Shown in pieces: positions 558 through 54,271 of a stretch of DNA of 64,000 nt. The stretch's first letter is position 1. Every line of letters begins with the position of its first letter. The notes under the pieces are model-generated. The model was not told the DNA's origin and made no database searches. It saw nothing but the letters and a program-made list of their open reading frames with translations. The stretch is from Zobellia alginiliquefaciens (GTDB lineage: Bacteria; Bacteroidota; Bacteroidia; Flavobacteriales; Flavobacteriaceae). The stretch lies in contig NZ_CP119758.1 in assembly GCF_029323795.1 (NCBI RefSeq), positions 2,790,001 to 2,854,000 on the forward strand. The letters are read 5' to 3'. The translations under genes and the position numbers were made by a program.

Positions 558-3539
558 ATGCGAAAGAAAATTACAATGTTTTTCTTGATGCTTTTCTGTG
601 CGCCATTTTTTGCATTGGCGCAGCTAAACGTGACCGGTACGGTCATAGATGATCTGGGTTTACCCTTACCCGGCGCTACAATTATTATAAAGGGAACTAC
701 AAATGGTGTTACCACGGATTTTGACGGAAATTATTCCATACAAGCCAATGAAGGCGATGTACTGGTGTTTACGTTTATTGGTCTAAAGAGTAAGGAGGTA
801 ACAGTTTCGTCCGAGGTGGTAAATGTGGCCATGGAAAGTGATATATCACAACTTGATGAGGTGGTTATTATCGGTTATGGAACGACAACAAAGAAAGATG
901 CTACCGGTGCCGTTGATTTGTTGACTGCCGAAGATTTAAACAAAGGAGCCATAACAACGGCAGACCAAATGATAACTGGTAAATCTGCCGGGGTACGCGT
1001 TGTAAACAATGGTGGTGACCCTGATGCAGGAATTAATATTAGAATTCGCGGTGGTTCTTCCTTGAATGCCAATAATAGTCCGCTAATTGTAATTGATGGG
1101 GTGCCGTTATCTAATCAGAACCCTGCGGGTCAGGCGAATCCTTTAACCTTGATTAACCCTAATGATATTGAGTCCTTTTCAGTATTAAAAGATGCATCTT
1201 CTACTGCTATTTATGGCTCGCGAGCTTCTAATGGGGTAATCATTATTACTACAAAGTCCGGTACGAAGGGCGCGCCTCAATTTAACTTCTCTTCTAACGT
1301 GCAGGTGGGTACCTTGAGCAATCAAATAGATATTTTTGATTCATCTGATTATGTAGATTTTATCCAGAGTACATATCCTGAAAGTACGGGTCTGTTAGGG
1401 CTGAACGGAACTATTTATGATACGGATTGGCAAGAAGAGATTTATAGAACTTCCTACACTATCAACAACAACTTAACGGCTAGAGGTAATCTTTTTAATG
1501 TAATACCGATCAGAGCTTCTTTTGGGCACTCGGAAATTGCGGGTATTTTAAAAGAATCACAATTAGATAGGTATACGGTTTCTTTAAATATTGCTCCTGA
1601 GTTTTTTGACCAACATTTAAAGGTAACCATCAATGCTAAGGGTATCGCTACTGAAAAAGATCAGCCAGATACGGGTGCCATAGGGAGCGCGTTGGCCTCA
1701 AACCCTACTTTGCCCATTTACGACCCTCAAGGTGGAATTTTTGGTGGATATTACCAAATAACCGATGATCAAGGTGTTGTTGGTTCCTCAAATCCATTGG
1801 CTTTATTAAAACAAAGAGAGCGTAATGAAGATGCGGATAGGTTTATTGGTAGTGCAGAATTCAGATATAAAATTCATGGTTTTGAAGAATTAACTGTGGT
1901 GGTAAACACAGGTATTGACTATTCAGAGTCTACGATCAATGAATACTTTTTGCCAAATGCCATTGGAGCCTATACGGTATTTGATGGTCTGCCAATTTTC
2001 AACAACTTCAGCGAGAGTTTTAGTGAGAATCAAATTAAAAGAGACCATCTATTAGATGCATATTTAAATTATGCAAAAGATTTTGATGGGGCTATCAATA
2101 GGTTCGATGTGCAAGCAGGTTACGCGTACCAGAACTTTACCACACAGGGAACTACTTTTCCAACTACCACGGAGAATGGCTTTAGAGAACCACAACAGCC
2201 TTTTCAGTATTATACTGTTTTGAATCTTCAGTCGTATTTTGCTAGGACCAACCTAACCATTTTCGATAGTTTTTTATTGACCGCTTCAGTAAGGGCAGAC
2301 GCTTCCTCTCTATTTTCTGAGGAGGATAGATGGGGTTATTTTCCAGCGGCAGCTTTAGCCTGGAAATTAGATGAAGAAAATTTCCTAGAAGCATCAGATT
2401 GGATAGACCAATTAAAATTGAGGCTAGGTTGGGGTTTAACCGGGCAACAAGATATTACGGGGCCAGTAGGCTATTTCCCTTATACTGCTTTGTATGATGA
2501 TGGTGATCCAACAGTAAGTTATGTGTTTGGTAACCAGGTGGTAACTACGTATCGAGCGAATGCTTTTAACCCTGATTTGACTTGGGAAAAGACTTCAACT
2601 TTCAATTTGGGTGTTGATTTCAATCTATTCTCCAATATGTTGAGTGGTAGTGTAGATGGTTACATTAGGACTACCACGGATTTATTGGCAGAGGTGCCGC
2701 AGTCTGAAGGAGCTTTACGTAACAGGTTTGTAAGTAATGTAGGAGAAACCGAAAGCAAAGGTTTTGAAGGCGCTCTTCAATTTAGACCTATTCAAAAGGA
2801 AGATTTTACATTGGAATTCAATGCAAATGCAGCGTTCAATGAAACTTACATTACAGATTTAGATAATATTACCCAGTTTTCTAGCGGGGGAGGTATTGGG
2901 CGTGGTACCGGTGTAAATATTGGGCAAACTGCGGTAGGTGAACGTAACCGTACCTTCTGGTTGTACGAGCAGGTATATGATGCTGATGGTAAGGTAATTG
3001 AAGATGCTTTTGTAGATCAGAATGGTGATGGAATTATTTCTGATGCCGATAGAAGGTTTATTCCGTTTGAACCCAAATGGACCTATGGTTTTGGAACGTT
3101 TATGCAATATAAGAATCTTGATTTTACCGCTAACTTAAGAGGTCAGTTAGGAGGCAATGTTTACAATGCTAATTTGTTGAATAGAGGGTATGCCCAAGCT
3201 GCTATTCCGCAAACAGATTCAGGATTTATAGACAATACGTTGGACCTTTTCGATGGAGTGAAGTACAACGGATTCCCGGAAATACCTTCGGATACTCAAG
3301 CCTTGTCAGATTTTTATTTGTCAGATGCTTCATTCTTAAGATTGGATAACATCACTATAGGGTATAATCTTACGCCCTTTAAGGATAAAAAGTTGAGCCT
3401 TAGATTCTACGGTTCTGCCAACAATGTATTCGTGATTACTGATTATGATGGTCTGGACCCTGAGAATTTCGATGGTATAGAATCTTCGCCTTATGCGCGT
3501 CCACGTACCTATACATTAGGTGTAAATGTTGATTTCTAA
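558..3539 (+). CDS. SusC-family TonB-dependent transporter, alpha-glucan locus
   Basis: Outer-membrane, TonB-dependent importer that takes up oligosaccharides together with the SusD lipoprotein encoded next. The 993 residues show a signal peptide (about 1-21, ending ALAQ), a carboxypeptidase-regulatory-like beta-sandwich (about 24-105, with the family pattern DFDGNYSI), a plug domain beginning near DEVVIIGYG, and a long beta-barrel ending in aromatic VNVDF. It opens a co-directional cluster SusC-SusD-SusE-amylase with gaps of about 10 bases, so the four are probably one transcript. Maltodextrin is inferred as substrate from the SusE and amylase neighbours, not from the transporter itself. Length is normal for the family. 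Confidence 0.95.
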   Translation: MRKKITMFFLMLFCAPFFALAQLNVTGTVIDDLGLPLPGATIIIKGTTNGVTTDFDGNYSIQANEGDVLVFTFIGLKSKEVTVSSEVVNVAMESDISQLDEVVIIGYGTTTKKDATGAVDLLTAEDLNKGAITTADQMITGKSAGVRVVNNGGDPDAGINIRIRGGSSLNANNSPLIVIDGVPLSNQNPAGQANPLTLINPNDIESFSVLKDASSTAIYGSRASNGVIIITTKSGTKGAPQFNFSSNVQVGTLSNQIDIFDSSDYVDFIQSTYPESTGLLGLNGTIYDTDWQEEIYRTSYTINNNLTARGNLFNVIPIRASFGHSEIAGILKESQLDRYTVSLNIAPEFFDQHLKVTINAKGIATEKDQPDTGAIGSALASNPTLPIYDPQGGIFGGYYQITDDQGVVGSSNPLALLKQRERNEDADRFIGSAEFRYKIHGFEELTVVVNTGIDYSESTINEYFLPNAIGAYTVFDGLPIFNNFSESFSENQIKRDHLLDAYLNYAKDFDGAINRFDVQAGYAYQNFTTQGTTFPTTTENGFREPQQPFQYYTVLNLQSYFARTNLTIFDSFLLTASVRADASSLFSEEDRWGYFPAAALAWKLDEENFLEASDWIDQLKLRLGWGLTGQQDITGPVGYFPYTALYDDGDPTVSYVFGNQVVTTYRANAFNPDLTWEKTSTFNLGVDFNLFSNMLSGSVDGYIRTTTDLLAEVPQSEGALRNRFVSNVGETESKGFEGALQFRPIQKEDFTLEFNANAAFNETYITDLDNITQFSSGGGIGRGTGVNIGQTAVGERNRTFWLYEQVYDADGKVIEDAFVDQNGDGIISDADRRFIPFEPKWTYGFGTFMQYKNLDFTANLRGQLGGNVYNANLLNRGYAQAAIPQTDSGFIDNTLDLFDGVKYNGFPEIPSDTQALSDFYLSDASFLRLDNITIGYNLTPFKDKKLSLRFYGSANNVFVITDYDGLDPENFDGIESSPYARPRTYTLGVNVDF

Positions 3540-3552
3540 AAACTAACTACAG

Positions 3553-5112
3553 ATGATTAAAAAAATAATATTCGGACTAATTGCAGTTTCGGTTTTCGTA
3601 GGCTGTACAGACGATTTAAATACAGAACCAAGAGTCGAACAGAGTTTAGACAACTTATTGGATTCAGACCCTGACGCCACCTTAGGAATCCTAGGGAAAT
3701 TATATGGCGGATTAGCTTTACATGGTATTGGTATTCCCGGTAGCGATAATCAACAAGCGGATATTGCCGGAGATGACCCTGGCGAGACCGTGTTTTTTAG
3801 AGCTATTTGGAACATGCAGGAACTAACCACTGATATTGCTAAAAACCGTTGGGGAGATGGAGGATTGGACCCACTGACCACGGCAACCAATTGGGTGCCT
3901 ACCAACAAGTTTTTTGGTTACTTATACAACAGAAGTTATTTCAATATTGCACAGATAAATAACTTCATAATAGACGTGCAGAAAACAGATGAGCCAAATG
4001 CCGATGTATATGTGGCGGAAGCCCGTTTTTTACGTGCCTTATTTTACTACTATTTGATGGATACCTTTGGAGGTGTGGTGATCGTAACAGAAGCAGACGG
4101 GGTAACAGGGGTTAGCAGAGTCAAGAGTACCCGTACGGAAGTATTTGAGTTTGTAGAAAGTGAATTGTTGGCTGTAGAAGAAATTATGCCAGCGAACAAT
4201 GAATACGGTAGGGCAAACAAAGCGGCAGTACACATGTTATTGGCTAAAATTTATTTAAATGCCGAAGTGTATACAGGTACGGATAGGTATTCAGATGCGT
4301 TAACCTACAGTGAAAAAGTGCTTTTAGAGTCACCATTTACCTTAGATGACGATTACCAGTCAATCTTTCAGGGAGATAACTTTACTTCACCTGAAATTAT
4401 TTTTCCAATTATTGGAGACAAAACTAATGTACAGTCTTATGGTACGGCTACCTATCTTACCAACGGTAGTTTAGGAGATACTACGATGCCAATAGCTGAA
4501 TTTGGTAATTCCGATAGTTGGTTCGGTCACCGCTGTACACCTGCTATTTATGGCTTGTTTGGAGATTTGGAAACAACAGGAGATAGCAGGGCTATTTTCT
4601 GGACAGATGGCCATACGTATGAAATGGACGACTACCGTACTTGGGAAAGTGGTTACCCGACCACAAAATTCCAAAACCAATATTCTGATGGTAGCTCTGG
4701 GCAAAGTAGTTTTTCAGATACCGATATTCCCCTATTCCGTTTAGCAGATGCTTACCTAATGTATGCAGAGGCCTACTTTAGAGGTGGCGGTGGTTCTGTT
4801 GCTCAAGCGGTAGCTTATATTAATACCTTAAGAGAAAGAGCATACGGTGATACCAGCGGTAATATTACAGAAGCAGACCTTACTGAACAATTCTTAATAG
4901 ACGAGCGTGCCCGGGAGTTGTATTACGAAGGGCACAGGAGACAAGATTTAATACGTTTTAACCGCTTTACGGGAGGAACTTACAATTGGCCTTGGAAAGG
5001 TAATGTGGTAGACGGAACATCAATTCCAGACCATTACAACCTATTTCCATTTCCTTTAGAGGCTTTACAGGCCAATCCATTATTGGAACAAAACCCGGGC
5101 TATACTAACTAA
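3553..5112 (+). CDS. SusD-like starch-binding outer-membrane lipoprotein
   Basis: Surface lipoprotein that caps the SusC barrel and binds glycan. It has 519 residues with a lipobox ending at Cys18 (VFVGC), an N-terminal helical TPR-like part, and the usual SusD C-terminal signature (DERARELYYEGHRRQDLIRF near residue 450, then an ending close to NPGY). It starts 13 bases after susC stops. The match to the starch-type SusD branch is inferred from context; a general SusD assignment is secure. Confidence 0.95.
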   Translation: MIKKIIFGLIAVSVFVGCTDDLNTEPRVEQSLDNLLDSDPDATLGILGKLYGGLALHGIGIPGSDNQQADIAGDDPGETVFFRAIWNMQELTTDIAKNRWGDGGLDPLTTATNWVPTNKFFGYLYNRSYFNIAQINNFIIDVQKTDEPNADVYVAEARFLRALFYYYLMDTFGGVVIVTEADGVTGVSRVKSTRTEVFEFVESELLAVEEIMPANNEYGRANKAAVHMLLAKIYLNAEVYTGTDRYSDALTYSEKVLLESPFTLDDDYQSIFQGDNFTSPEIIFPIIGDKTNVQSYGTATYLTNGSLGDTTMPIAEFGNSDSWFGHRCTPAIYGLFGDLETTGDSRAIFWTDGHTYEMDDYRTWESGYPTTKFQNQYSDGSSGQSSFSDTDIPLFRLADAYLMYAEAYFRGGGGSVAQAVAYINTLRERAYGDTSGNITEADLTEQFLIDERARELYYEGHRRQDLIRFNRFTGGTYNWPWKGNVVDGTSIPDHYNLFPFPLEALQANPLLEQNPGYTN

Positions 5113-5123
5113 ATATTAAGAAG

Positions 5124-6431
5124 ATGAAGAAAAATTTAGCATTTCTATATACATCTATTGTGGCACTAGCAGTTTTGGTAACGGGTTGTAGCGATGATGA
5201 TGAAAATATAAGGGTAAGCGAAACTTCCAGTACCCAACTAACCTTGTCTTCTACGGATGCGTTAGAATTAACAAGGGATATGACAGGTGAAACCGTAATA
5301 AGTCTTAATTGGACAGCACCAGATTTTGGTTTCTCTGGCGCAGTACCTACTTACAACGTAGTAGTTGGAGTAGATGCAGCTACAGAAGCAACGCCTATTC
5401 GCGTAAATGTGGGTAATGTATTAAGTAAGGATTTCTTGGCAGAAGAACTGAATGAAGCTGTTGTGGAAGCGGGAGCTTTGGCCGGTTTAGAAAATGAAGT
5501 GCAAGTGTGGGTAGAGGCCATGTTAGGTAAAGATGTTGTAGCTTCTTCAACTGCACAGACATTAACTATTACAGGGTACGCTACCAGTTTTGATTTAAGC
5601 TCACCTTGGGGCTTGGTTGGTTCTGCTGCGCCAAACGGATGGGATGGCCCAGATGTGCCTGTATACAGTACTGCTATTGCCAATGAGTTTGTAGCTTATG
5701 CAACCTTAGTAGATGGAGAGCTTAAAATACGTGAAAACAATGATTGGACTGTTAACTACGGTGGTGCAGATGGAACCCTGGTTTTAGATGGAGACAATAT
5801 TCAAGTTACGGCAGGCACCTACAAAATCATGTTTAGCTTAAATGATTTTAGCTATGGTATTGAGCCGTTTACATGGGGCTTGGTTGGCGACGCTACACCA
5901 AACGGATGGGATGGTCCAGATACACCACTGACTTACGATTCTTCAACGGACCAGTGGAGAACTGTGGTTACCTTAACCGATGGTGAAATGAAGTTTAGAC
6001 AAAACAATGATTGGACTGTTAATTATGGTGATACCGGCTTAGATGGTACTTTGGAAGAAAATGGTGATAACATTGTTGTAGAAGCTGGTAACTACCTAGT
6101 TTCTGTAGATTTTACCAATAACCTGTACACCTTAGAGCCAATAGATATTTGGGGCTTGGTGGGTGATGCTGCACCAAACGGCTGGGACGGACCTAACATG
6201 CGTTTCACGCCGGATTATGCCAATGAAGGGGTTTGGATTTTAGAGAATGTTACGCTGTTGGATGGTGAGATGAAGTTCAGGGCCAACGATGCGTGGGACC
6301 TAAATTATGGTGATGATGACGCAGATGGTACCTTGGAACTAGATGGTGCTAATATCCTTGTAAGTGCTGGTACCTATACCATTACTTTATTCTTGGCAGA
6401 TGCCGATAATCCAACCTACACCATCCAATAA
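5124..6431 (+). CDS. SusE-like starch-binding lipoprotein with three repeated modules
   Basis: Surface lipoprotein of 435 residues expected to bind starch or maltodextrin beside SusC/SusD. The lipobox ends at Cys22 (LVTGC). Residues about 30-150 match the Ig-like N-terminal domain typical of SusE. Three copies of a module of about 90 residues follow, each beginning WGLVG and carrying the pattern PNGWDGP, then DGEMKFR, NDWTVNYG and DGDNI. They start at bases 5607, 5874 and 6150. The aromatic and asparagine-rich motifs fit the SusE/SusF C-terminal starch-binding domains. The same module recurs in the neighbouring amylase. Confidence 0.9.
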   Translation: MKKNLAFLYTSIVALAVLVTGCSDDDENIRVSETSSTQLTLSSTDALELTRDMTGETVISLNWTAPDFGFSGAVPTYNVVVGVDAATEATPIRVNVGNVLSKDFLAEELNEAVVEAGALAGLENEVQVWVEAMLGKDVVASSTAQTLTITGYATSFDLSSPWGLVGSAAPNGWDGPDVPVYSTAIANEFVAYATLVDGELKIRENNDWTVNYGGADGTLVLDGDNIQVTAGTYKIMFSLNDFSYGIEPFTWGLVGDATPNGWDGPDTPLTYDSSTDQWRTVVTLTDGEMKFRQNNDWTVNYGDTGLDGTLEENGDNIVVEAGNYLVSVDFTNNLYTLEPIDIWGLVGDAAPNGWDGPNMRFTPDYANEGVWILENVTLLDGEMKFRANDAWDLNYGDDDADGTLELDGANILVSAGTYTITLFLADADNPTYTIQ

Positions 6432-8731
6432 ACAAAGATATTATGAAAATTAAAAAATATATAAATCTAAGTCTCGTTGCATTATCAGTATTGATTGCAG
6501 CTTGTACTAATGATGATTTTTCACCTTTAAACGTTAAAGAGGCTAATGATGCCGAGGATATGGCTTCAGGTTCAGCGGCTGCTAGAACAGAAGTACAGAT
6601 ACCAGGTGATGGTGTTATGATGCAAGCCTTTTATTGGGATGTTACCGATGGAGGGATATGGTGGAACAACGTGGAATCTAAATTAGATAGCTGGTCAGCC
6701 AATGGTATTGATGCTATTTGGATACCGCCAGTTTCTAAAGGTCAAAGTGGTGGTTTTTCTATGGGTTATGACCCTGCGGATTATTTCGATTTTGGCGATT
6801 TTCAGCAGCATGGTACCGTAGAAACTCGTTTTGGTAATCGTGCCGAATTAGAAAATATGATTGGTACAGCGCATGAAAATAACATAGCTGTTATTGCAGA
6901 TATCGTTCTAAATCACAATTCTGGTGGTCAGTTAGAGTACAATGAATTTAGACAAATTGATACTTACACTTTATTTGAGCCAGAATCTGGTTTGTTCAAT
7001 AGAACGTGGTTAAACTATTTACCCAATGCAGAAAATTTAGAAGACGAAGGTCGGTTTGGTGGTTTTCCCGATTTGGATTTGAATAATGATTATGTACGCG
7101 ATTGGTTATGGCGTTCAGAAGAATCTGTAGCTAATTATTACATGAACACCTTAGGGATAGATGGCTGGCGATTTGATTATGTAAAAGGATTTTCTCCTGA
7201 AGTCATTAAAGATTGGATAACAACGGTAGGTGGTTATAGTGTAGGTGAGAATTTTGATGGTAATGTGGAAGGTGTGGTTGGTCCATGGGTAGAAGCTTCT
7301 GGAACTAATGCATTCGATTTCCCTAACTTCTTTAACATGCGTAACGCTTTCCTAAATGGAAATTTAAATGAGTTGGTAAAACCAAGCTTAATATCTACTA
7401 TGCCAGATAAGGCGGTAACTTTTGTAGGCAATCATGATACGGAAGCTAGAGATGGTAGCAACGAATTTCCAGATGATTTCGAAACTCATGCGTATGCCTA
7501 CATTATGAGTGCTCCTGGGTATCCTTGTGTTTTTTATTCACATTATGAAGATAGTGGTGAAGAACAGAAAGCTAAAATCAATCAACTGATTCAGATTCGT
7601 TCAAAACTGGCTGCTGGGGATTGGACCGTGAACCACGTTTCTAACCAGGAGTTCGCAGCCATCAGAGGCGGTGATGCAGAGAAGCCAGGATTAGTATTAT
7701 ACATCAACTTAACTGATGCTGAGGTAACAAGAGAGGTAGAAACGCATTGGCTAAGTGCGAACATTAAAGATTACACAGAAGAATATTTAATTTTTGAGCA
7801 ATCAGATGCTAACGGAACGGTAACCTTAAAAGCACCTGCCAACGGCTATGCAATTTGGGCAGCTACAGAAGACGAACAATTGGCCTTCCCGGAAGCATTG
7901 TATGTACCTGGTGGTTACCAAGGATGGGACCCATCTTCGGCACCAATGCTTAACGCTTTGGAATTACCAAACTTAGCAGGGACCTTTAGAGGTCACGTTA
8001 GTTTTACTGAAGCTAACAACGAGTTTAAATTTACCGATGCACCTAATTGGGATAATGGAATTTTTGCTGATGAAGAAGATGGTGCTTCGGGCGTATTAGC
8101 ATCTCCAGGGAATAATATTGTTTTATCGGGGCCTCAAGATTATGAAATTAATGTGGACTTGGCCAATAACACATGGTCGGCAAATACGTGGGCTATTATC
8201 GGTTCTGCTGCACCAAACGGTTGGGATGACCCAGATACGGATATGTCTTATGATTTTAATAGAAATGTTTGGACCGTAAGTGCTACATTGTCAGACGGGG
8301 AGTTGAAATTCCGAGCCAATAATGGTTGGGATGTAAACCTTGGTGGCACAGGCACAGAAGGTACTTTAGTTGATGGAGGCGATAATATCGCTATAACCGC
8401 AGGTAGCTATCAAATAGATTTAGACGTGACCAACAGAACATTTAATCTTGGTAGTTGGGCAATTATTGGTTCGGCAACGCCAAACGGTTGGGACGATTCG
8501 GATACTGATATGGTTTACGATATGACCAATAAGGTATGGACTATAATTACTGATCTGATGCCCGGTGAAATGAAATTTAGGTTTAACGATACATGGGATG
8601 TCAACTTGGGTAATAGTGGAGCAGGTAATTCGTTGGGACAAGATGGAGATAATATAATGATTTCAACAGCGGGCAATTATACGATTAAATTGGATGTTTT
8701 GAGCCATACGTATGATATCAGTTTGAATTAG
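5607..8731 (+). repeat. Family of five starch-binding modules spread over two genes
   Basis: Five coding repeats of about 267 bases start at 5607, 5874 and 6150 (in the SusE-like gene) and at 8189 and 8456 (in the amylase gene). Spacing is 267 bases for the first pair and for the amylase pair, and 276 between the second and third. All share PNGWD, a DGE(L/M)KFR-like strand and a GDNI turn. The set looks like one module duplicated within each gene and exchanged between them. Confidence 0.8.
6443..8731 (+). CDS. Surface GH13 alpha-amylase with C-terminal starch-binding modules
   Basis: Lipoprotein endo-alpha-amylase of 762 residues that should cut starch at the cell surface (a SusG-like role). 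The lipobox ends at Cys21 (LIAAC). The GH13 barrel spans about 55-470 with all conserved regions: DIVLNH (Asp153, His158), GWRFD with nucleophile Asp245, GEN with acid/base Glu269, and GNHD (His331, Asp332). After the barrel come a divergent beta-sandwich module (about 495-580, with GGYQGWDP) and two SusE-type modules to the C-terminus. It is the last gene of the SusC-SusD-SusE-amylase run and is followed by a strong terminator. SusG has a different binding-domain layout, so this is an analogue, not an orthologue by architecture. Confidence 0.93.
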   Translation: MKIKKYINLSLVALSVLIAACTNDDFSPLNVKEANDAEDMASGSAAARTEVQIPGDGVMMQAFYWDVTDGGIWWNNVESKLDSWSANGIDAIWIPPVSKGQSGGFSMGYDPADYFDFGDFQQHGTVETRFGNRAELENMIGTAHENNIAVIADIVLNHNSGGQLEYNEFRQIDTYTLFEPESGLFNRTWLNYLPNAENLEDEGRFGGFPDLDLNNDYVRDWLWRSEESVANYYMNTLGIDGWRFDYVKGFSPEVIKDWITTVGGYSVGENFDGNVEGVVGPWVEASGTNAFDFPNFFNMRNAFLNGNLNELVKPSLISTMPDKAVTFVGNHDTEARDGSNEFPDDFETHAYAYIMSAPGYPCVFYSHYEDSGEEQKAKINQLIQIRSKLAAGDWTVNHVSNQEFAAIRGGDAEKPGLVLYINLTDAEVTREVETHWLSANIKDYTEEYLIFEQSDANGTVTLKAPANGYAIWAATEDEQLAFPEALYVPGGYQGWDPSSAPMLNALELPNLAGTFRGHVSFTEANNEFKFTDAPNWDNGIFADEEDGASGVLASPGNNIVLSGPQDYEINVDLANNTWSANTWAIIGSAAPNGWDDPDTDMSYDFNRNVWTVSATLSDGELKFRANNGWDVNLGGTGTEGTLVDGGDNIAITAGSYQIDLDVTNRTFNLGSWAIIGSATPNGWDDSDTDMVYDMTNKVWTIITDLMPGEMKFRFNDTWDVNLGNSGAGNSLGQDGDNIMISTAGNYTIKLDVLSHTYDISLN

Positions 8732-8760
8732 GATGTTAGTTTAGTTAGTTTAATAGTAGT

Positions 8761-8791
8761 AAAGGTTGCCACTTGGCAGCCTTTATTTTTT
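8761..8791 (+). terminator. Rho-independent terminator after the amylase gene
   Basis: A ten-pair stem (AAAGGTTGCC with GGCAGCCTTT, one G-T pair) around an ACTT loop is followed by a T-rich tract. It closes the starch operon before the regulator gene. Confidence 0.85.
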
Positions 8792-8971
8792 CTATCCCAT
8801 TTAGTCATAAGATTGAATGCGCGTTGTTTGTATAGTGAAACTCCTTATTTTTATATTTTTTAGAGTCAAATACTTCATTTGAAGAGTCGGTTCTTAAAAG
8901 CTTTGTCTTGCTTGATATAAGCGGATGGTAATTTTCGGTTCGTTTACCAATTATTAAAAGTTATGGATTAA

Positions 8972-10879
8972 ATGATTTTCAGTAAGATACTTAGACAAAT
9001 TTTTGCAAGCGATTATTATTTTAAGTCCTTTTGGATAGCCATACTTTATCTGAACATAAGCAGTTTGGTCGCTCAAACAAGTTTTGTAATAGATTATGTG
9101 CCAAAAGAAACCAAACAATCAGACGTACTATATTTAACGGGCACATTTAATAACTGGAATCCTGCGGATATCAACTACAGGTTTACGAGAAAAGTTGACG
9201 GAACATACGAGTTAAGAAATAAGTTTTTTAATGGTTCTTGGATATCGTATAAAATCACCAGAGGTAGTTGGCCTACGGTAGAGGTTAAGAAAGATGGAAC
9301 ACCGCTCACGGTAAGAAAGCACTCTTTTAACAACGCTATAGAAGAAACATTGACCTTACAGGTAGCGGGTTGGTCAGACCTTTTAAAGGAACAGGCCGAA
9401 CCAAAAAAAGTAGCGATTATATTGACGGAGATACCCCAAAACACTCCTCCTAATTCTTCATTGTATATATGTGGTAATTTTAATGGTTGGGTACCCGGGG
9501 ATCAACGCTACAAAATGAAGCCGATCGCCAATGGAAACTATCGCGTGGAGGTTCCTGTGTATACAGAACCGTTGGAATATAAGTTTACGCGTGGTAATTG
9601 GCTCACGGTAGAGGGCAATAGTTACGGTAGACCAATACCAAATCGCATATTGGGTAGTAAAGAAATTCGTTTGGGTCAGCCCATAAAAAACTCAATAACG
9701 TACTGGGAGGACCAGTCTTACGGTATATTTAACCCTTACACCTTACTTTTAATTCTGACTGCTCTTCAAGGCTTTTTTCTGATATTTATAATTAATTCCA
9801 ATAGAAATAATAACAAATGGGCCAATCAGGCACTGAGTGTTCTCATTTTTATCATATCCTTTACATTAATTTCCAGAGTAGTAATCTATGATCGGGTAAT
9901 TTATACAGATTACCCAAGGTTATCACTATTAACTGATTTGGTCTTTTTCTTATACGGTCCCATATTTTTAATTTACATCGAACGGTTATTACAACATAGC
10001 AAAAAGTCGTTTCGGGCCTATTGGCCCCATTTCATACCTTTTTTAATACAAGTTATTATATATATCAGTTTTTCTTTTAATCCCACCCATACATTTATTG
10101 AGCAAAATTTATTTCAATCTTTGGAATCTCCGCCCTATGCTTTTTATGAAGTGATTGTGCTTTTAGCATTAATGTTCAATATTTGGTATTGGTTTAGAAT
10201 TAAGGGGAAAATTAAAATGTATTTTAAAAATATTGAAGTCAATTATTCTACTGATCAGAATATAAAATATTTGAATGTCATAATGATGGTGCTCGGCATT
10301 TGTTTGGTGTTGTGGACGGTTATCGTTCTAGTTGACATTTATAGTACATATAGTGATAATCCCATAAACTATACCGCAAATTTATTGATCGATGTTCTTT
10401 GGGCCGTTTTTTCAGTAGTGGTTTATTTATTGGGATATTTCGCTATAAAGCAACCGGAAATTTTTAGAATGGCCGTTGTAGAAGTAGAAGAGTCAAAACC
10501 TGAAGTAAATCGTTCGCAAATCAATACAGATGATCTAAAGGAACTGAAGCAGGCATTGCACCAAAAAATGATTGAAGAGCAAGTATATTTAAATCCAGAA
10601 TTAAGTTTACCGGAGTTGGCCGAAAAAATGGATACCAATGTGCATGCCCTTTCCAAAACCATCAATGCGGGATACTCCAAAAATTTCAGGGATTTTGTAA
10701 ACTATTATAGAATTCAAGATTTTATAGAGCGTGCACAGGAGGAGAAATATAAGAATCAGACCTACTTGGCCATAGCCTTGGCTGTAGGTTTCAATTCAAA
10801 ATCATCATTCAATCGTTCGTTTAAAAAAGTAACCGATAAATCTCCTAGAGAATATTTTAATGATTTAAGAAAGAGCTAG
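8972..10879 (+). CDS. Membrane AraC-family regulator with two starch-binding-like sensor domains
   Basis: One-component regulator, 635 residues. After an N-terminal hydrophobic anchor (about 18-34) come two tandem beta-sandwich domains (about 37-133 and 146-235) of the CBM20/CBM48 type, each with a GxFNxW motif (GTFNNWNP, GNFNGWVP) and a later (I/F)TRG(S/N)W strand. Seven hydrophobic segments follow between about 253 and 480, then an AraC/HTH_18 DNA-binding domain (about 530-635, ending KSPREYFNDL). The sensor domains should face the periplasm and read maltodextrins. It lies between the starch operon and the GH13 gene, so controlling both is a natural inference. It does not have the SusR layout. 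Confidence 0.85.
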   Translation: MIFSKILRQIFASDYYFKSFWIAILYLNISSLVAQTSFVIDYVPKETKQSDVLYLTGTFNNWNPADINYRFTRKVDGTYELRNKFFNGSWISYKITRGSWPTVEVKKDGTPLTVRKHSFNNAIEETLTLQVAGWSDLLKEQAEPKKVAIILTEIPQNTPPNSSLYICGNFNGWVPGDQRYKMKPIANGNYRVEVPVYTEPLEYKFTRGNWLTVEGNSYGRPIPNRILGSKEIRLGQPIKNSITYWEDQSYGIFNPYTLLLILTALQGFFLIFIINSNRNNNKWANQALSVLIFIISFTLISRVVIYDRVIYTDYPRLSLLTDLVFFLYGPIFLIYIERLLQHSKKSFRAYWPHFIPFLIQVIIYISFSFNPTHTFIEQNLFQSLESPPYAFYEVIVLLALMFNIWYWFRIKGKIKMYFKNIEVNYSTDQNIKYLNVIMMVLGICLVLWTVIVLVDIYSTYSDNPINYTANLLIDVLWAVFSVVVYLLGYFAIKQPEIFRMAVVEVEESKPEVNRSQINTDDLKELKQALHQKMIEEQVYLNPELSLPELAEKMDTNVHALSKTINAGYSKNFRDFVNYYRIQDFIERAQEEKYKNQTYLAIALAVGFNSKSSFNRSFKKVTDKSPREYFNDLRKS

Positions 10880-10996
10880 TCTATAGGCTCAAAGAAAGTG
10901 TCATTTTATAAAATATATACCAAGTTATAATATAAGTCGATACATTACCCATTTCCCATTAGTTTAGTTTTCTCAACTTAAATTAAAACTAATAAG

Positions 10997-12835
10997 ATGA
11001 AAATTGTAACAACTTTGATATTGGCTATGGTGCTTTCTTTTACCCAATTAGCGGCCCAAAATGCAATAGAGAGATTAGAGCCACCTAATTGGTGGGTGGG
11101 TATGGAATACAATACCATAGAATTGCTGGTATATGGTGACGAAATCGCTGCTTTTGAGGTAGTTTTAGAACCCTATGAAAATGTGCAATTGCAAAGTATT
11201 AAAAAGGTAGCCAACCCAAACTATTTGTTCTTGACCTTGCATATTGGTGATACTGCCAAGCCAGGAAACTTACAGTTAGATTTTAAAAAAAATGGTGCAT
11301 CCGCCTTTGTACAATCGTATGAAATAAAAGAGCGAGAAAACAATCGTAAAAATATAGAAGGTTTCAATACCACGGATGCCATCTACTTAATTACTCCGGA
11401 CCGTTTTGTAAATGGCGACCCAAGCAATGATACGGTAAACGGAATGGTAGAGAAGCCAAACCGAAAAGATAAAGGAGGAAGACATGGTGGCGATGTTGCT
11501 GGTATTGTAAATCACTTAGAAGATATAAAGGATATGGGATTTACGGCCATTTGGACCAATCCAATTCTGGAAAACAATATGCCAAGCTATAGTTACCATG
11601 GCTATGCAATTACCGATTTTTACAAAGTAGACCCCCGATACGGAAGTAATGAATCTTTTAAGGCAATGTGCGATCAAGCTTCTGAAATGGGGATGAAGGT
11701 AATTATGGATATGATTGCCAATCATTGTGGGTTGGAGCACTGGTGGATGAAAGACTTGCCCTCTAATGATTGGATTAACCAGTGGGATACGTATACACAA
11801 ACCAATCATAGAAAAACGGTAGTCTTAGACCCGTATGCCACTAAAAAAGATACCAAGGAGTTTTTTGATGGCTGGTTCGTTCCTACCATGCCCGATTTAA
11901 ACCAGCGTAACGGGTCCATGGCCAAGTATTTAATACAGAATACACTGTGGTGGGTAGAATATTCTGGTATTTCTGGCATCCGTATGGATACGTATCCATA
12001 TCCGGATATGTATTTTATGCGCGACTGGACTGCGGCAGTGATGGCAGAGTATCCCGATTTTAATATTGTAGGGGAAGAATGGGTATTGCGTCCTACAATT
12101 GTTTCGTACTGGCAAAAGGGGAAAGAGAATGCCAATGGCTATACTTCAGAATTAAAAAGTGTTATGGACTTTCCTGTTCAGCATGCGTTGATCACTTCAT
12201 TGAACGACCCTAGTTCATGGAACGCTGTTTATGAGGAAATAGGTCAAGATTATTTGTATCCAGACCCCAATAATTTAGTGGTATTTCCGGATAATCATGA
12301 TATGAGTCGTATTTATACACAACTACATGAAGATGCAGATTTGGTTAAGCTAGCGCTCACCTATATAACTACTATTCGGGGAATACCACAGATTTATTAT
12401 GGTACGGAAGTATTGATGGGCAATAAGGGTACAGAAGACCATGGTATTATTCGCACCGATTTTCCCGGGGGATGGGCAAAAGATAAGATAAATGCCTTTA
12501 CGGGGGAAGGTCTTTCCCAGTCACAGTTGGAAACTAAGAATTACCTAACTCAACTTTTTAATTGGAGAAAAGATAACAATGCTGTTCATAATGGTAAGCT
12601 TTTACATTTTGCCCCAGTTAACAACACCTATGTTTTCTTTAGATATACAAATAATGAAATGGTTATGGTTATATTGAATAAGGATAAAAACCCCGCCAAC
12701 ATAGATATAAAGGAGTATAGAGAAGTGCTTAAAGGTAAACTTTCCGGAAAGGATATTTTAACTGGAAAGCTTTATAAGGCTGCAGACAACTTAAAAATTT
12801 CAGGAAAAACAGCGATGATTATTGAGGTAGAGTAA
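10997..12835 (+). CDS. GH13 cyclomaltodextrinase/neopullulanase-like enzyme
   Basis: Exported GH13 enzyme, 612 residues, probably cutting imported maltodextrins in the periplasm (a SusA-like role). It has a signal peptide (1-20, ending LAAQ), an N-terminal beta-sandwich of the cyclomaltodextrinase type (about 22-115), and a barrel with MDMIANHC, GIRMD (nucleophile Asp331), VGEEW (acid/base at 360) and FPDNHD. No lipobox is seen, in line with a soluble periplasmic protein. It follows the regulator after 117 bases and has its own strong downstream terminator, so it may have its own promoter. Exact specificity (pullulan, cyclodextrin or linear) cannot be read from sequence. Confidence 0.9.
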   Translation: MKIVTTLILAMVLSFTQLAAQNAIERLEPPNWWVGMEYNTIELLVYGDEIAAFEVVLEPYENVQLQSIKKVANPNYLFLTLHIGDTAKPGNLQLDFKKNGASAFVQSYEIKERENNRKNIEGFNTTDAIYLITPDRFVNGDPSNDTVNGMVEKPNRKDKGGRHGGDVAGIVNHLEDIKDMGFTAIWTNPILENNMPSYSYHGYAITDFYKVDPRYGSNESFKAMCDQASEMGMKVIMDMIANHCGLEHWWMKDLPSNDWINQWDTYTQTNHRKTVVLDPYATKKDTKEFFDGWFVPTMPDLNQRNGSMAKYLIQNTLWWVEYSGISGIRMDTYPYPDMYFMRDWTAAVMAEYPDFNIVGEEWVLRPTIVSYWQKGKENANGYTSELKSVMDFPVQHALITSLNDPSSWNAVYEEIGQDYLYPDPNNLVVFPDNHDMSRIYTQLHEDADLVKLALTYITTIRGIPQIYYGTEVLMGNKGTEDHGIIRTDFPGGWAKDKINAFTGEGLSQSQLETKNYLTQLFNWRKDNNAVHNGKLLHFAPVNNTYVFFRYTNNEMVMVILNKDKNPANIDIKEYREVLKGKLSGKDILTGKLYKAADNLKISGKTAMIIEVE

Positions 12836-13019: not shown

Positions 13020-13290
13020 GTCCAGGCCTTTAATAAATTGTACTATAAAAAGGTGAATTAGCTTTTTAGTCTATTGGTCCCACTCTTTATAAATGGCAAC
13101 CCTTTTTGTTTACAGGTCTCAGGGTCTCGAAATCAAAAATAAACGAACCAATGTTTTTTTAGGGCCGCCTCCCGTTCAGTTTTGTTAGGCTTGACCACTT
13201 TGAAACATTGATACTCCTCCTGTATGGATTTTAGGTTCGACATAGTTTATCTTTATGGGGAAGTAAGTGTTTACGCTTTTGTTCGCGGAG
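13020..13290 (-). pseudogene. Decayed N-terminal piece of a tyrosine recombinase
   Basis: Read on the minus strand, this stretch resembles the start of the intact recombinase at 52680-54086. VEPKIHTGGV matches TEPKIYTGGV, and a frame-shifted continuation TEREAALKKHWFVYF-stop-FRDPETCK matches TEQKKALKKPWYVYFSFRDPKTGK. A frameshift and an in-frame TGA break it. Further left, a weak match (LIHLFIVQF to LLRLFVQF) hints that an internal deletion has joined it to the catalytic part, but that is tentative. It sits directly beside a tRNA-fMet fragment, in the same geometry as the intact enzyme beside the intact tRNA, so it is probably the integrase of an earlier island. Confidence 0.8.
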
Positions 13291-13313
13291 CGTAAAAAAA
13301 AGAAGTACAAGGC

Positions 13314-13342
13314 ATAAAAAATGACTTCTGATTTCTCAGAAG
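13314..13342 (-). terminator. Terminator left of the tRNA-fMet fragment
   Basis: On the minus strand a seven-pair stem (CTTCTGA, GAAA loop, TCAGAAG) is followed shortly by six Ts. It lies between the tRNA fragment and the recombinase remnant, matching the position of the unrelated terminator at 54144-54174 beside the intact tRNA. It is probably a leftover of the older island end. Confidence 0.7.
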
Positions 13343-13349
13343 CCTTTTT

Positions 13350-13397
13350 GCTTAGTAGCGGGGACTGGACTCGAACCAGCGACCTTCGGGTTATGAG
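13350..13397 (-). repeat. Left attachment repeat (3' fragment of tRNA-fMet)
   Basis: These 48 bases are identical to 54193-54240 inside and just after the intact tRNA. They cover tRNA positions from the anticodon loop to the discriminator base plus flanking bases. The 5' half of the tRNA is absent here, so this is not a functional gene. Identity stops directly after TTATGAG, where the intact tRNA continues CCCGACGAG and this copy continues TTTGACGAT. This marks the left boundary of the island. Confidence 0.92.
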
Positions 13398-13817
13398 TTT
13401 GACGATAACCACAATTTTAGGTCTATTTCCCGTTCTTTTTCTTAAAACCGTATTCGATAACGTATACGCTGATTTATAGTAATTTTAGGCAAATATTATT
13501 AATTAATTTTGAATTAGCAAAGCTTATGATGACCGGTATTAATAAAGCTTAATATTAGTTTATTAAATCTTATTTCATTTGTGTCATTCCAAGTGTCTGT
13601 CAGATAATTCTTCTATCAATTACGACTCTCTTATAATAAATTAAATATCGGGAGATTTTAAATCCCGATATTTCAAATTTACCAACGCCTTAAGTTCTTA
13701 CGAATTTTGAACTATAAGCTGCTCTTGTAATATTGGGTATAATAATGACTAAATGGTTCACAACCGGAGTGGTTGCCAAATTGCTAATGCACAACTTAGA
13801 TTAGTTTTAAGTGGCCA
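13398..13817. other. Gene-free left end of the island
   Basis: AT-rich sequence with no credible open frame. Its only clear structure is a perfect 11-bp inverted repeat (AAATATCGGGA at 13643-13653 with its complement at 13663-13673). This may end transcripts of the GH16 gene, which reads toward it, but it lacks a long T-run. Confidence 0.5.
13643..13673 (-). terminator. Inverted repeat downstream of the GH16 gene, possible terminator
   Basis: Perfect 11-bp arms around a nine-base loop, 145 bases past the GH16 stop codon on the minus strand. The sequence after the stem is T/A-rich but has no run of Ts, so termination is likely rather than certain. Confidence 0.45.
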
Positions 13818-33285: not shown

Positions 33286-35616
33286 ATGGGAACTGTTGAA
33301 AAAAAGATACAAAACTTAAAAGACAAGCTAAATAAAGAGCTGAGTAAAGAAAATTCAGACAACAATTTAATCCTTTCTCTATCTCATGAAATTGCAGGTC
33401 TTGATAATGAAAATGTTAGATTTTCTATTGATGCTGGTGTAATAGATCGTTTAGGAAAAGAGTTAGTAGCACGACAAGAAACAGCAGTTTCAGAATTAGT
33501 AAAGAATTCTTATGATGCTGATGCAACAGAAGTAAATCTTACTTTCTTTGATTCAGATATTAAAGGAGGTACTCTTCAGATTGATGATAATGGAGAAGGA
33601 ATGAACCGTGAAGAATTGATTGACGGTTTTATGAGGATTTCCTCTACTAGCAAAATACATAATCCAGTCTCAAAAAAGTATAACAGAACTAGAGCAGGGA
33701 AAAAGGGAATTGGGAGATTTGCAGTTCAACGATTAGGTAAAAAATTATCAATAATTACACAAAAAAAGGATTTAGATTTCGGCTTAAAACTGTCTATAGA
33801 TTGGGACGATTATAAACAGGATCTAAATCTTCTTTCTATTTCTAATACACTTGAGGTTATTCCTAAAGAAAAAGAAAATGGTACCACTTTAATAATTGAA
33901 GATTTAAGAGATAAATGGTCGACAGCATCTATAAAAAGAATTTATAGATATGTCACGGATATTATACAACCTTATACACTTACCGAGAGAAAACAAGATG
34001 AAGATGATAATAGGATAAAAGAGACAGAAGATCCTGGGTTTATTTCTACTTTTCATAAATCAACAAATAATGTAACTACAAAAATTGCTGACGAAAAAAC
34101 TGAAATTTTCAAATACTCAGTTGCAAAAATAGAAGGCTGGATAGACTCTAAGGGGCAAGGTGTTTACACAATAGAAAGTGATCGATTGGGTATTAATGAA
34201 ATAGGTAATATTGGAATTAATCCAGATGACGAAAAAGCACCGTTTGAGAAACTAAATGAGATTAAATTCAGTGCTTATTACTTTTTGCTTGATTCCGAAT
34301 TTATACCAAAAATGCATAGTGGTAATGTGAGGAAGTTTTTAAGAAACCAAGGAAGTGTTAGGTTGTATAGAAATGGATTTAGGGTTCTACCTTATGGAGA
34401 ACCTGGTGATGATTGGTTAAAACTGGATGCTTCTCTTAGAACGAGAAGTATTTTACCTTCACATGGTAATAACAATTTTTATGGTTTAGTAGAAATGTTG
34501 GACAAGGATGATCATTTCGTTGAGACTTCTAGTAGAGAGGGATTAGCTGATTCAGAAGAATTAAGGCAACTACAGAATTTTATTTATAGAGTTTTATTAA
34601 CAGGTGTTATTAAGGTTGCTGAAGTAAGAAATATCAAGATAACTACCAGTCAACAAAAAGATGATGAGGGCAATTGGGAATCTACAGATTTAAGAATAAA
34701 GAATATTTTTAAAACGATAGAAGAGTTAGACCAAGAATTAGAGGATGACACCTTAGAAAATAAGAGTAAAAGAAAAAAACGTGTTAGACGCATAAAAGAA
34801 GATTTACAGGAACTACAAGAAATTCAAACATCAGAAAAAACTAAAATGATTAAAGAGCGAGCTATGCTGAGAGTTCTTAGTAGTGTTGGTCTTTCTATTG
34901 CACAGTTTATTCACGAAATTAAGTACTATATGGTAAGCATTAGAAGTGACATTGATTTTCTTACGGAAAATTTAAAATCTGATAGTGTTGCTTTAGAAAG
35001 AACTCTTATACTAAAAGGTAATTTTTCTACATTTCATACTTATACTTCTTATTTTGATGACGTAATTTCTAAAAACATATCTGTAGAGTTGGAACCTCTA
35101 AATATGGAAGAAGTTGTAAATGACTTTTTAAACTCTATTAATCTAGAAGCTCAAAGGTCTGGAATTCAATTTATGGAGCCGGAAGTGCCTATCTATCGCG
35201 TTTATTCAAAACCAATGCATCGCTCAGAATGGGCTTCAATTCTATTCAATTTTTATACAAATTCGAAAAAAGCGATAAAGAGGGCTAATTCTGAAGGGAA
35301 AATATTAATAGAAATTGGGGAAGAAGAAAATATGATTTTTCTTGAATTCTCAGACAATGGTGACGGTATATCCAAAGAAATCGAAGACAAAATATTTGAC
35401 GAATTTTTCACAACTACTTCAGCTCAAAGTTATGAATCACTGGAAACAGCTAATGAGATTTTAGGGACAGGACTGGGCTTAAAGATTGTGAAAGATATTA
35501 TTAAAAGTTATCGGGGTAATATATCCGTAGTTTCTCCAAAAGACGATTTTTCAACTACAATTAGAGTGGAAATTCCAATAGCAACAGAAAAAGATAAGAA
35601 AGAATATGGCTTATAA
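33286..35616 (+). CDS. Sensor-kinase-like protein with two GHKL ATPase domains
   Basis: A 776-residue soluble protein with no membrane helix. The N-terminal Hsp90/MORC-like ATPase shows ELVKNSYDAD (Asn74), DDNGEG (100-105) and GIG (141-143). A transducer-like region follows, containing RLYRNGFRVLPYGEPGDDW. After a charged coiled-coil stretch (about 480-525) comes a kinase part: a candidate phospho-acceptor His543 in AQFIHEI, then a second GHKL domain with Asn659, DNGDG (690-694) and GTGLGL (727-732). It overlaps the receiver gene by 11 bases, so phosphate transfer to that protein is the obvious inference. Proteins of this double-ATPase type occur in defence islands; the function here is not known. 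Strongly AT-rich, unlike the flanking glycan loci. Confidence 0.8.
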   Translation: MGTVEKKIQNLKDKLNKELSKENSDNNLILSLSHEIAGLDNENVRFSIDAGVIDRLGKELVARQETAVSELVKNSYDADATEVNLTFFDSDIKGGTLQIDDNGEGMNREELIDGFMRISSTSKIHNPVSKKYNRTRAGKKGIGRFAVQRLGKKLSIITQKKDLDFGLKLSIDWDDYKQDLNLLSISNTLEVIPKEKENGTTLIIEDLRDKWSTASIKRIYRYVTDIIQPYTLTERKQDEDDNRIKETEDPGFISTFHKSTNNVTTKIADEKTEIFKYSVAKIEGWIDSKGQGVYTIESDRLGINEIGNIGINPDDEKAPFEKLNEIKFSAYYFLLDSEFIPKMHSGNVRKFLRNQGSVRLYRNGFRVLPYGEPGDDWLKLDASLRTRSILPSHGNNNFYGLVEMLDKDDHFVETSSREGLADSEELRQLQNFIYRVLLTGVIKVAEVRNIKITTSQQKDDEGNWESTDLRIKNIFKTIEELDQELEDDTLENKSKRKKRVRRIKEDLQELQEIQTSEKTKMIKERAMLRVLSSVGLSIAQFIHEIKYYMVSIRSDIDFLTENLKSDSVALERTLILKGNFSTFHTYTSYFDDVISKNISVELEPLNMEEVVNDFLNSINLEAQRSGIQFMEPEVPIYRVYSKPMHRSEWASILFNFYTNSKKAIKRANSEGKILIEIGEEENMIFLEFSDNGDGISKEIEDKIFDEFFTTTSAQSYESLETANEILGTGLGLKIVKDIIKSYRGNISVVSPKDDFSTTIRVEIPIATEKDKKEYGL

Positions 35617-36694
35617 GTTATTATACATAGAGGATGAAGACTCAAGTTCTATAGTAGCAAATCTAGAAAAAAATGGAAATTTCATAGTTGAGACATGGAG
35701 TCCAGACAGTTTAGAGGAACTAGGGGGGAAGATTAAAGGAATGGATTTGTTAATTATGGATTTTAGACTAACCCATAGTAAGACTATTGTTGATGGTCCA
35801 GCATTTGCGCAAGCTTTAAGGACAAAGAATTCTACTATTCATATGAATATACCTATGTTTCTTTTTTCTGTTGAAAATAACATAACTGATTATTACAAAG
35901 ATTACACAAGTCAAGATTTATTTGATTTTTCAGTACCTAAGGGAGAATACTTACTTCACTCTGATAAGTATAATGATAGAATAATCTCTGTGATTGAAGG
36001 CTATAAATGTATAATTGAATCAAAAAATGACTTGAAATTGATTTTAGATATTAGTGAGGATTTTAAGAACGATAATTTGGACTATCGTATTGAATTCAGC
36101 TTATCTAAAAAACTTTTTTCCGAAGACGTTTATGCATTCTCAAGTTTCATTCACCATAATATTATTAGGTCAGTCGGTGTTCTTATAGGTCCTGATATGC
36201 TTTCAGCTAGGTTAGGAGTTTCGCAAGAATCTGATGATTGGCCAGAATTGTTAAGTAAGCTTGAAAATATAAAGTATACTGGAATTTTCTCTAAAGTTTA
36301 TGATAGATGGTGGGCGGATAGCATTTCTGAATGGTTTAAAAGTTTAGATGAACAAAAAAGATCACTAAGAAGACTAACCGCAGAAGATCGCGTTACTTCT
36401 ATTAAGAAAATTACAGGTTTACAGAAGTTAATACCCCTTGAAAAAATTCAAAAATCAAACTATTCTGCTATTAGTTCAAAATTTTGGACTATTTGTAAAG
36501 AGACGAAAATGCCTATTGATTATATAGATGGTTACGAGCTTTACGATAGAGACCTGTTTGTTTGGCAAGAACCTGAATATATCAGTTTTTTAGGTAAATC
36601 TTCGAAGCGATATAGTAAGTATATTAAACCAAATGATCAGCAAAAAATCGCGGCATTAGAAACTAAATTGAAAGAGGATGTGGGGAATAAGTAA
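35606..36694 (+). CDS. Receiver-domain protein with an unidentified C-terminal effector domain
   Basis: A 362-residue protein. Residues 3-135 form a CheY-like receiver with acidic residues at 9-11 (IEDE), phospho-acceptor Asp52 (LLIMDFRL) and a lysine near 112 (SVPKG). The remaining 220 or so residues, which include SSFIHHNIIRSVGVLIG and LRRLTAEDRV, match no DNA-binding or nuclease domain that I can recognise. It is translationally coupled to the kinase (11-base overlap) and to the next gene (17-base overlap). It is likely the phosphorylated partner of the kinase, with the C-terminal part acting on the unknown protein or the methyltransferase. Confidence 0.72.
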   Translation: MAYKLLYIEDEDSSSIVANLEKNGNFIVETWSPDSLEELGGKIKGMDLLIMDFRLTHSKTIVDGPAFAQALRTKNSTIHMNIPMFLFSVENNITDYYKDYTSQDLFDFSVPKGEYLLHSDKYNDRIISVIEGYKCIIESKNDLKLILDISEDFKNDNLDYRIEFSLSKKLFSEDVYAFSSFIHHNIIRSVGVLIGPDMLSARLGVSQESDDWPELLSKLENIKYTGIFSKVYDRWWADSISEWFKSLDEQKRSLRRLTAEDRVTSIKKITGLQKLIPLEKIQKSNYSAISSKFWTICKETKMPIDYIDGYELYDRDLFVWQEPEYISFLGKSSKRYSKYIKPNDQQKIAALETKLKEDVGNK

Positions 36695-37427
36695 CTTCTT
36701 AGCGGATTTAAAAATTCTTAACCGAAAAGTTAGGCTGTATGATATTCCCATCCAGTCTAAAGAATTAATAGAACTTGAGTCCGAATTCGAATGCAGAAAT
36801 AATGAGGATATATCTCATGTCATAAAAGAAGTTGAATTCACGTTAGACGAATGTGTGTCTGGAACAATCCCGGCAGAAATTGCGTATTTCACATTCTACA
36901 TGAGTTTAAATTTTATTCCCAATTATAATTTGGACTTTGATAATCAAGATCCTTTTCATAACGATAAAATTAATTATAGAAATAATGACATAGATTCTTA
37001 TACTTTTCAATTAGAAATTGTCGCTATGAATCGGGATAGTGATGAATTTTATAATTGTTGGCATTTAGATAGGCATATTACTGGAGGAGATTTAAGTAAA
37101 GTAATACATCCCTTCTACCATTTTCAAAACGGTGGAAACAGAATGGAAAAGTATAATAATGATATTAAACTTGCAGTATTTACTAGTGCACCTAGGCTAC
37201 CACACCCACCCATGGATTTGTTTCTTGCATTTCATTTCGTAATTACAAATTTCTACAATAAAAATTCTTTTTCAAATATTGCAAATTTATTGAATGATGA
37301 TGAATATATAGAAATTATTGAGAATGCTCAAAAAAGAATGTGGAAGCCTTATTATGCGGCATTTAATGGTGGCGCTCACACCGACTATTCGATCCCTAAC
37401 ATTACTCCTTTATATACTGTTCATTAA
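36678..37427 (+). CDS. Unknown protein of the kinase/methyltransferase operon
   Basis: A 249-residue, probably cytoplasmic protein of no recognised family. Conserved-looking features are a histidine/aspartate cluster WHLDRH (128-133), HPFYHF followed by GG (144-153) and PRLPHPPMD (172-180), then a helical C-terminus. Such a spread of His, Asp and Gly could be a metal-binding or catalytic site, but no PD-(D/E)xK, HNH or Toprim pattern is seen. The start ATG lies inside the receiver gene and the stop shares one base with the methyltransferase start (TAATG), so it is part of the same coupled unit. It is the best candidate for the effector if the operon is a defence system. Confidence 0.6.
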   Translation: MWGISNFLADLKILNRKVRLYDIPIQSKELIELESEFECRNNEDISHVIKEVEFTLDECVSGTIPAEIAYFTFYMSLNFIPNYNLDFDNQDPFHNDKINYRNNDIDSYTFQLEIVAMNRDSDEFYNCWHLDRHITGGDLSKVIHPFYHFQNGGNRMEKYNNDIKLAVFTSAPRLPHPPMDLFLAFHFVITNFYNKNSFSNIANLLNDDEYIEIIENAQKRMWKPYYAAFNGGAHTDYSIPNITPLYTVH

Positions 37428-51903: not shown

Positions 51904-52683
51904 CTACTTTGATGGTTTTGAAAAGACCGTATCTATCAAGAACGCAATGGCCTCATCGTCCGATATCAGGGGAGTCTTTTTTTTCTTTGTCTTCTTGGGT
52001 CCTGTTTTATCGTCAAAGTTCCGTGTCTTCTCATGGGTAGTTAGGTATTCATCCCCCTCAAATTGGAACTCCTCGTTCAGTATCAAGAGAATTTTAAGGG
52101 AAGCCTCGAACCGAAGTACTTCCTCAAGAATAGGAATTTTATAGACAAGGGAATCGTCAAAATAGGTAGCATCCCCTATAAGAAAATAGGAGAGGGGGAT
52201 TTGGTTTTCGGTGGTCAGTCGCTCCTGTAAGACCTCCTGTCTTATTCCGAACAGTTCCAGTTTCTTTGCCCTACTAATCTTTGTATGACCATCGGGGGAT
52301 TTGCCATTTCGGAGTATGTCGAACCTATCCTCAATGGCCGACTTTACGATCTCTTTGTAATAGCGCAAGGCGACTTTTCTTTTTTCTTCCGCATCGAGAC
52401 CGAGTATGTCCTCCTCATACGAATAGAAGAACCCGATCAGCGAGTTTTCGATTACATCTTCGTATACATCCAATATATAACCGTAAAATTCTTTTGTCAA
52501 TGCCGCATTAGGTACGTATACCGGTTCACTGTTTTCAGAAGTTACGGGGTTAGGACTGCCATTCAAAGAAAGGGGTATACGCCTGACCTGATGGAAAAGT
52601 CCCTTCGTAAGGTGTATGCGCCTAAGCTCTTTGATGGTCATAGAGTTCAGGTCCAAATCTTTTAAGAGTCCGAAATAGGTCAT
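51904..52683 (-). CDS. Unknown protein coupled to the recombinase
   Basis: A 259-residue, probably cytoplasmic protein, rich in charged residues, with a lysine-rich patch (KKTKKKKT) near 236. I do not recognise the family. Its ATG overlaps the recombinase stop by four bases, so the two are translated together, and a terminator follows. This pairing suggests a role in integration, excision or their control. It is much longer than usual excisionases and shows no clear helix-turn-helix. Confidence 0.6.
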   Translation of the reverse strand: MTYFGLLKDLDLNSMTIKELRRIHLTKGLFHQVRRIPLSLNGSPNPVTSENSEPVYVPNAALTKEFYGYILDVYEDVIENSLIGFFYSYEEDILGLDAEEKRKVALRYYKEIVKSAIEDRFDILRNGKSPDGHTKISRAKKLELFGIRQEVLQERLTTENQIPLSYFLIGDATYFDDSLVYKIPILEEVLRFEASLKILLILNEEFQFEGDEYLTTHEKTRNFDDKTGPKKTKKKKTPLISDDEAIAFLIDTVFSKPSK

Positions 52684-54086: not shown

Positions 54087-54143
54087 GGGGAAAGTGTATA
54101 CTGTTTCGTTTACTGTTTGTAAAACTACGGAAATAGTGGGCAT

Positions 54144-54174
54144 AAAAAAAACGGTCTGTGCGTACACGGACCGT
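54144..54174 (-). terminator. Terminator of tRNA-fMet
   Basis: A ten-pair stem (ACGGTCTGTG / CACGGACCGT, one G-T pair) with a CGTA loop is followed on the minus strand by seven Ts. It ends the tRNA transcript and lies on the island side of the attachment site, so it was brought in by the island. Confidence 0.8.

Positions 54175-54192: not shown

Positions 54193-54271
<79 letters not shown>

Follow-up and report, generated by a model that had tools for sequence, protein, structure and literature searches.

The window, meaning the whole stretch of 64,000 nucleotides that was analysed, covers C1:2790001-2854000 of a closed 5.07-Mb Zobellia chromosome (genome G000). Its left part holds a full Sus-like starch locus and its right part an intact initiator tRNA-Met gene with an adjoining tyrosine integrase; between them lies an island that begins at a fragment of this same tRNA gene, with the remnant of another integrase on the far side of the fragment (Table 1). 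The direct repeat at the two ends of the island is identical at 47/47 positions; beyond 13397 it continues at 92% identity up to 13405, and the imperfect extension as a whole spans 13342-13405. The fragment matches the tRNA gene with E 1.6e-19 in a whole-genome search. We compared nine Zobellia genomes, including the window genome, its closest relative G002 (blocks ~91-93% identical), Z. russellii KMM 3677 (G007) and Z. amurskyensis KMM 3526 (G004).

Table 1. Features of the window, numbered from its first base, and island ends of two other species that share one deletion junction.
Feature	Position	Strand	Remarks
Starch/maltodextrin locus	558-12835	+	SusC, SusD, SusE-like, GH13 amylases, regulator; lineage-specific layer left of the remnant
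Integrase remnant	13058-13256	-	Start codon lost; ~65 of ~460 codons left, with frameshifts and stops; 3′ part of the gene deleted
Leader of the remnant	13257-13350	-	5′ region of the lost integrase; terminator-like hairpin
attL	13351-13397	.	Exact copy, over 47 bases, of the 3′ half of tRNA-fMet, from the anticodon loop to the 3′ end
Younger island	13398-54193	.	GH16, three SusC/SusD pairs, sulfatase, restriction-modification-like cluster, sugar transporter, regulator
Restriction-modification-like cluster	33286-39265	+	Four genes with a PUL of the younger island on either side: HATPase/REase_II-like protein, Eco57I-type N6 methyltransferase, two unknowns
orf259	51904-52683	-	Conserved partner downstream of the integrase; at least 20 Flavobacteriaceae loci
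Intact tyrosine integrase of the younger island	52680-54086	-	ORF open to 54167, probable ATG at 54086
attR	54194-54240	.	Same 47 bases as attL, within the intact tRNA gene
Intact tRNA-Met, initiator type	54198-54271	-	GGG/CCC anticodon stem
Na/Ala symporter	54464-55828	+	Conserved right flank; adjoins tRNA-fMet in 8/8 related genera checked
Shared-junction end, G007	C11:1171483-1171747		
Shared-junction end, G007	C11:1205747-1206012		
Shared-junction end, G004	C9:35356-35621	-	
Shared-junction end, G004	C29:44011-44239		

The resident integrase, which adjoins the tRNA gene, matches PF00589 (E 3e-10, 40.5 bits against a cutoff of 27.1) and has no match among PDB sequences. Its listed GTG start (52680-54167, minus strand) is probably too early, the ATG at 54086 being the conserved one. 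The partner orf259 has no match in Pfam, PHROG, NCBIfam or PADLOC, and its predicted structure (mean pLDDT 81) has no PDB fold match; it is a candidate excision or accessory factor. Relaxase and conjugation genes, the hallmark of an ICE, are absent from the larger ORFs of the island, which were those scanned; by these ORFs the island would not class as an ICE.

A decayed integrase beside the left repeat was the core of the original prediction, and it is confirmed by the protein match, by shuffled controls and by the exact repeat. Aligned at the protein level, as had been proposed, the remnant matches the resident integrase with a tblastn E of 1e-12 and the Z. russellii integrase with E 9e-23 (two pieces in different frames, at 66-73% identity). 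The match scores 61.2 bits against 25.8 bits for the best of 500 dinucleotide shuffles, and the remainder of the window returned no match below E 2. Homology stops near codon 65 of 462, and what is left of the coding part has a 2-base insertion, a 1-base deletion and stops in all frames. In a codon-level alignment to the Z. russellii gene, the start region has passed from ATGAAAATG to ATAAAGATA, and both possible start codons now read ATA. The leader is 90-92% like island ends of Z. russellii and Z. amurskyensis. The remnant had also been said to lie against its tRNA fragment exactly as the intact gene lies against the intact tRNA; the layout holds, but the adverb is slightly too strong, with ~99 bp from the start codon to the tRNA end of the fragment for the remnant and ~112 bp for the intact gene.

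At the DNA level the remnant is 88% identical over 252 bases to the intact Z. russellii integrase and 72% identical to the resident one, which rules out a decayed copy of the latter. Its nearest relative is the intact integrase that adjoins a tRNA-fMet fragment in Z. russellii. Relationship and decay together indicate that the remnant is the end of another, earlier element rather than a duplicate of the one now present. The mirrored layout would also suit a single island whose left fragment and remnant came from a partial duplication of the tRNA-integrase end; we find this scarcely credible, given that the remnant belongs to a different integrase branch, that the two pairs lie 41 kb apart and that serial fragments occur in other species.

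Fragments of tRNA-fMet were found by whole-genome searches in 7/9 Zobellia genomes, and all end near one common anticodon-loop base. Where the window genome has two island layers at this gene, Z. russellii has three serial fragments (1171692, 1205966 and 1244015) to the left of its intact tRNA (1281302), and an undamaged integrase gene adjoins the third of these. Kriegella aquimaris repeats the two-layer layout on one contig, again with an intact integrase beside the fragment. The integrases beside fragments and tRNAs range from intact genes through single stops to stubs or complete deletion. How such stubs form is shown by G002, where a stub of the window genome's integrase (99.3% DNA identity over 289 bp) lies at the tRNA and abuts cargo resembling another Z. 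russellii island; it is a recent case of the process behind the old remnant in the window. Separately, four island ends without an integrase share one deletion junction, at which the integrase and its partner gene are gone and the leader and att site are kept (Table 1, last rows); they are candidate integrase-less islands, which may have moved in trans or recombined.

The ancestral state can be read from a related genus (g51, genome G062), which is collinear with Zobellia for the genes left of tRNA-Arg up to the tRNA-Arg/tRNA-fMet point. There the two tRNA genes are 62 bp apart and the same symporter follows, against 136-214 kb between them in five complete Zobellia hotspots; judged by gene order, this adjacency is the empty ancestral site. 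Within the hotspot of the window genome, 2654.1-2689.9 kb is mostly common to all congeners whose data reach there, 2689.9-2742.6 kb is common mainly with G002, and 2742.8-2844.2 kb is confined to the window genome, with no counterpart in place. Sharing drops toward the tRNA, as it should where new DNA arrives beside it. Changes of other kinds occur too, as seen from a lineage-specific gap at 2635.7-2654 kb, and G003 and G006 carry at least 37 kb of variable DNA left of the tRNA with no fragment, so that part of the variable region may owe nothing to integrases.

The window genome has a second stack, at the elongator tRNA-Met gene, where integrases of the same family adjoin the intact tRNA (4299747) and two fragments (4211711 and 4261994); over 4 kb, the integrase end at 4211711 shares 99% identity with that at 4299747. 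In 31/31 informative loci, drawn from 36 in named genomes as those that retain the relevant upstream DNA, with distant outliers left out, the integrase is directly preceded by a tRNA-Met 3′ half. By these loci, the family is dedicated to tRNA-Met throughout Flavobacteriaceae. A FastTree phylogeny of the integrases intermingles those that use the initiator gene with those that use the elongator gene, which would imply at least two switches between the two genes in Zobellia and others elsewhere. The tRNA-Met hotspots also contain integron-like arrays (G006 C2:61768-97914 and G000 C1:4273699-4296596). In these, an XerA/integron-type recombinase comes first (NF040815, 237 bits, cutoff 220), and after it come imperfect palindromes of ~210 bp that look like attC sites, all in one orientation and separated by small ORFs, at least 15 in the former and ~13 in the latter; one palindrome copy folds with z -3.6.

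These data bear on the view that the variable region is simply a rearrangement- or deletion-prone zone in which tRNA fragments are incidental. The fragment-less variable DNA of G003 and G006 would fit it; however, the common end point of the fragments and the tie of the integrase family to tRNA-Met argue against it, and we regard it as very improbable. Repeated integration at the same tRNA, as originally proposed, is instead strongly supported by the serial fragments, the intact integrases beside fragments in Z. russellii and Kriegella, the elongator stack and the ancestral site. With the repeats, the stub, the relatives, the stack order and the ancestral site all shown, we conclude that the window site is very probably one boundary inside a stack of islands that entered serially at the initiator tRNA-Met gene.

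For the chemistry of such a stack, we infer that the tyrosine integrase of each element would recombine the attP site with the tRNA gene in its 3′ half, with a crossover near the anticodon loop, as the repeat ends suggest. Insertion would rebuild an intact tRNA at the right end of the element, beside the element's own integrase, and leave the old 3′ half as a fragment at the left end. The next insertion would therefore fall between the tRNA and the previous integrase, so that age would rise leftwards. At the window site, an element with an integrase of the Z. russellii island-3 type would have come first and the present island of 41 kb after it; the older integrase would later have been cut by a deletion to a tRNA-proximal stub, which then decayed.

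Whether the starch locus belongs to that older element, as the original prediction suggested, is a separate matter. Conservation in place, which would have spoken against cargo, is rejected: G004 and G007 alone share its SusE-like gene, at 85-86%, and the other six congeners have no match or a weak partial one. The Z. russellii locus sits within the elongator stack at a distance of 2.9 kb from a tRNA-Met fragment, and that of Z. amurskyensis is 2.8 kb away from an integrase stub. Its absence from six congeners, together with its place in the Z. russellii elongator stack, makes it variable hotspot cargo. The prediction thus holds only in part: variability and the tie to tRNA-Met stacks in two other species speak for it, while the bounding fragment is missing. 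A third tRNA-fMet fragment was looked for upstream, as had been suggested, across 2685000-2803300 of the window genome and none was found (the best local score, 11, did not exceed that of core controls), although such a fragment is not strictly defining for a tandem accretion array, old repeats being prone to decay or deletion.

With the stacking real, the starch locus may still not be cargo of the remnant's element, if the deletion that cut the integrase fused the stub to an underlying, unrelated layer. Only ~220 bp separate the end of the starch locus from the stub, the fresh stub in G002 abuts cargo that resembles another Z. russellii island, no left att for a starch island was found, and in other species the homologue of the segment to its left (2783476-2790000) occupies a different place, so that the layer is a mosaic. 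Against such a fusion stand the 2.9- and 2.8-kb distances in Z. russellii and Z. amurskyensis, which are as expected for cargo near the right end of an island. We consider fusion a serious possibility, if short of an even one, and lean towards an arrival of the starch locus with the remnant's own element. This assignment is no more than plausible, since the third fragment is missing and the G002 stub shows that fusion to unrelated cargo can happen. The block at C1:2783476-2790000 is itself of note: its 6.5 kb (regulator, cupin, MFS, aldo/keto reductase) are 92-94% identical to blocks elsewhere in four congeners, which for three of the four exceeds the 84-86% of blocks around the tRNA, and it is likely to be a recent transfer.

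A role of the tRNA as a hotspot for polysaccharide loci is supported, but the enrichment is modest. Over the nine genomes, the hotspots hold 18 SusD genes against ~7 expected (~2.5-fold, with islands shared between genomes and no formal test behind the ratio); counts come from a four-sequence profile and may be too low. The window genome has 48 SusD genes in total, and all four of its variable region lie in the last 51 kb (~1% of the genome), where ~0.5 would be expected. We put forward, speculatively and as a rather doubtful whole, that the integrase-orf259 module is Flavobacteriaceae-wide, uses two tRNA-Met genes with several initiator/elongator switches, and builds time-ordered stacks of PULs and integron-like cassettes that move between both stacks, with integrase-deleted islands re-mobilised in trans.

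PUL gain in marine Bacteroidota is usually inferred from trees. Here, the chromosome of a seaweed-degrading marine host that gained foreign DNA repeatedly at one tRNA gene holds a layered record at one base-exact site, with an integrase leftover marking one of the layers. The record is rough; even so, the order of its layers makes the order of PUL gain readable and testable across species. The integrase family dedicated to tRNA-Met also offers a means of locating mobile PULs in other Flavobacteriaceae and of testing their transfer directly. A literature search of open-licence papers found no earlier description, for Flavobacteriia or for Zobellia, of islands with PULs at tRNA genes.

The mechanism itself, tandem accretion at RNA genes, is already known (PMC3146451). 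The asparagine tDNA hotspots of Klebsiella pneumoniae (PMC4891358) likewise show tRNA genes as recurrent sites for different islands, but they involve another tRNA and other cargo, with no catabolic PULs. Accretion and cis-mobilizable elements of the ICESt1 type, as far as PMC3146451 conveys them from Pavlovic et al. 2004, combine deletion with tandem accretion and keep integrase-less ends, to which the four island ends from two species with one integrase-deletion junction may form a parallel; a difference is that conjugation genes were not recognised among the larger ORFs of the window island, and mobilisation in trans would here be conjecture. A close likeness is with the tandem ssrA genomic islands of Dehalococcoides (PMC3146451): serial islands are bounded by repeats of the 3′ end of an RNA gene, the integration module adjoins that gene, fixed older islands lie farther off and some islands have no integrase of their own. 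The Dehalococcoides islands differ in using ssrA, in carrying reductive dehalogenases and in belonging to another phylum, whereas the stacks described here are built on two tRNA-Met genes and one integrase family.
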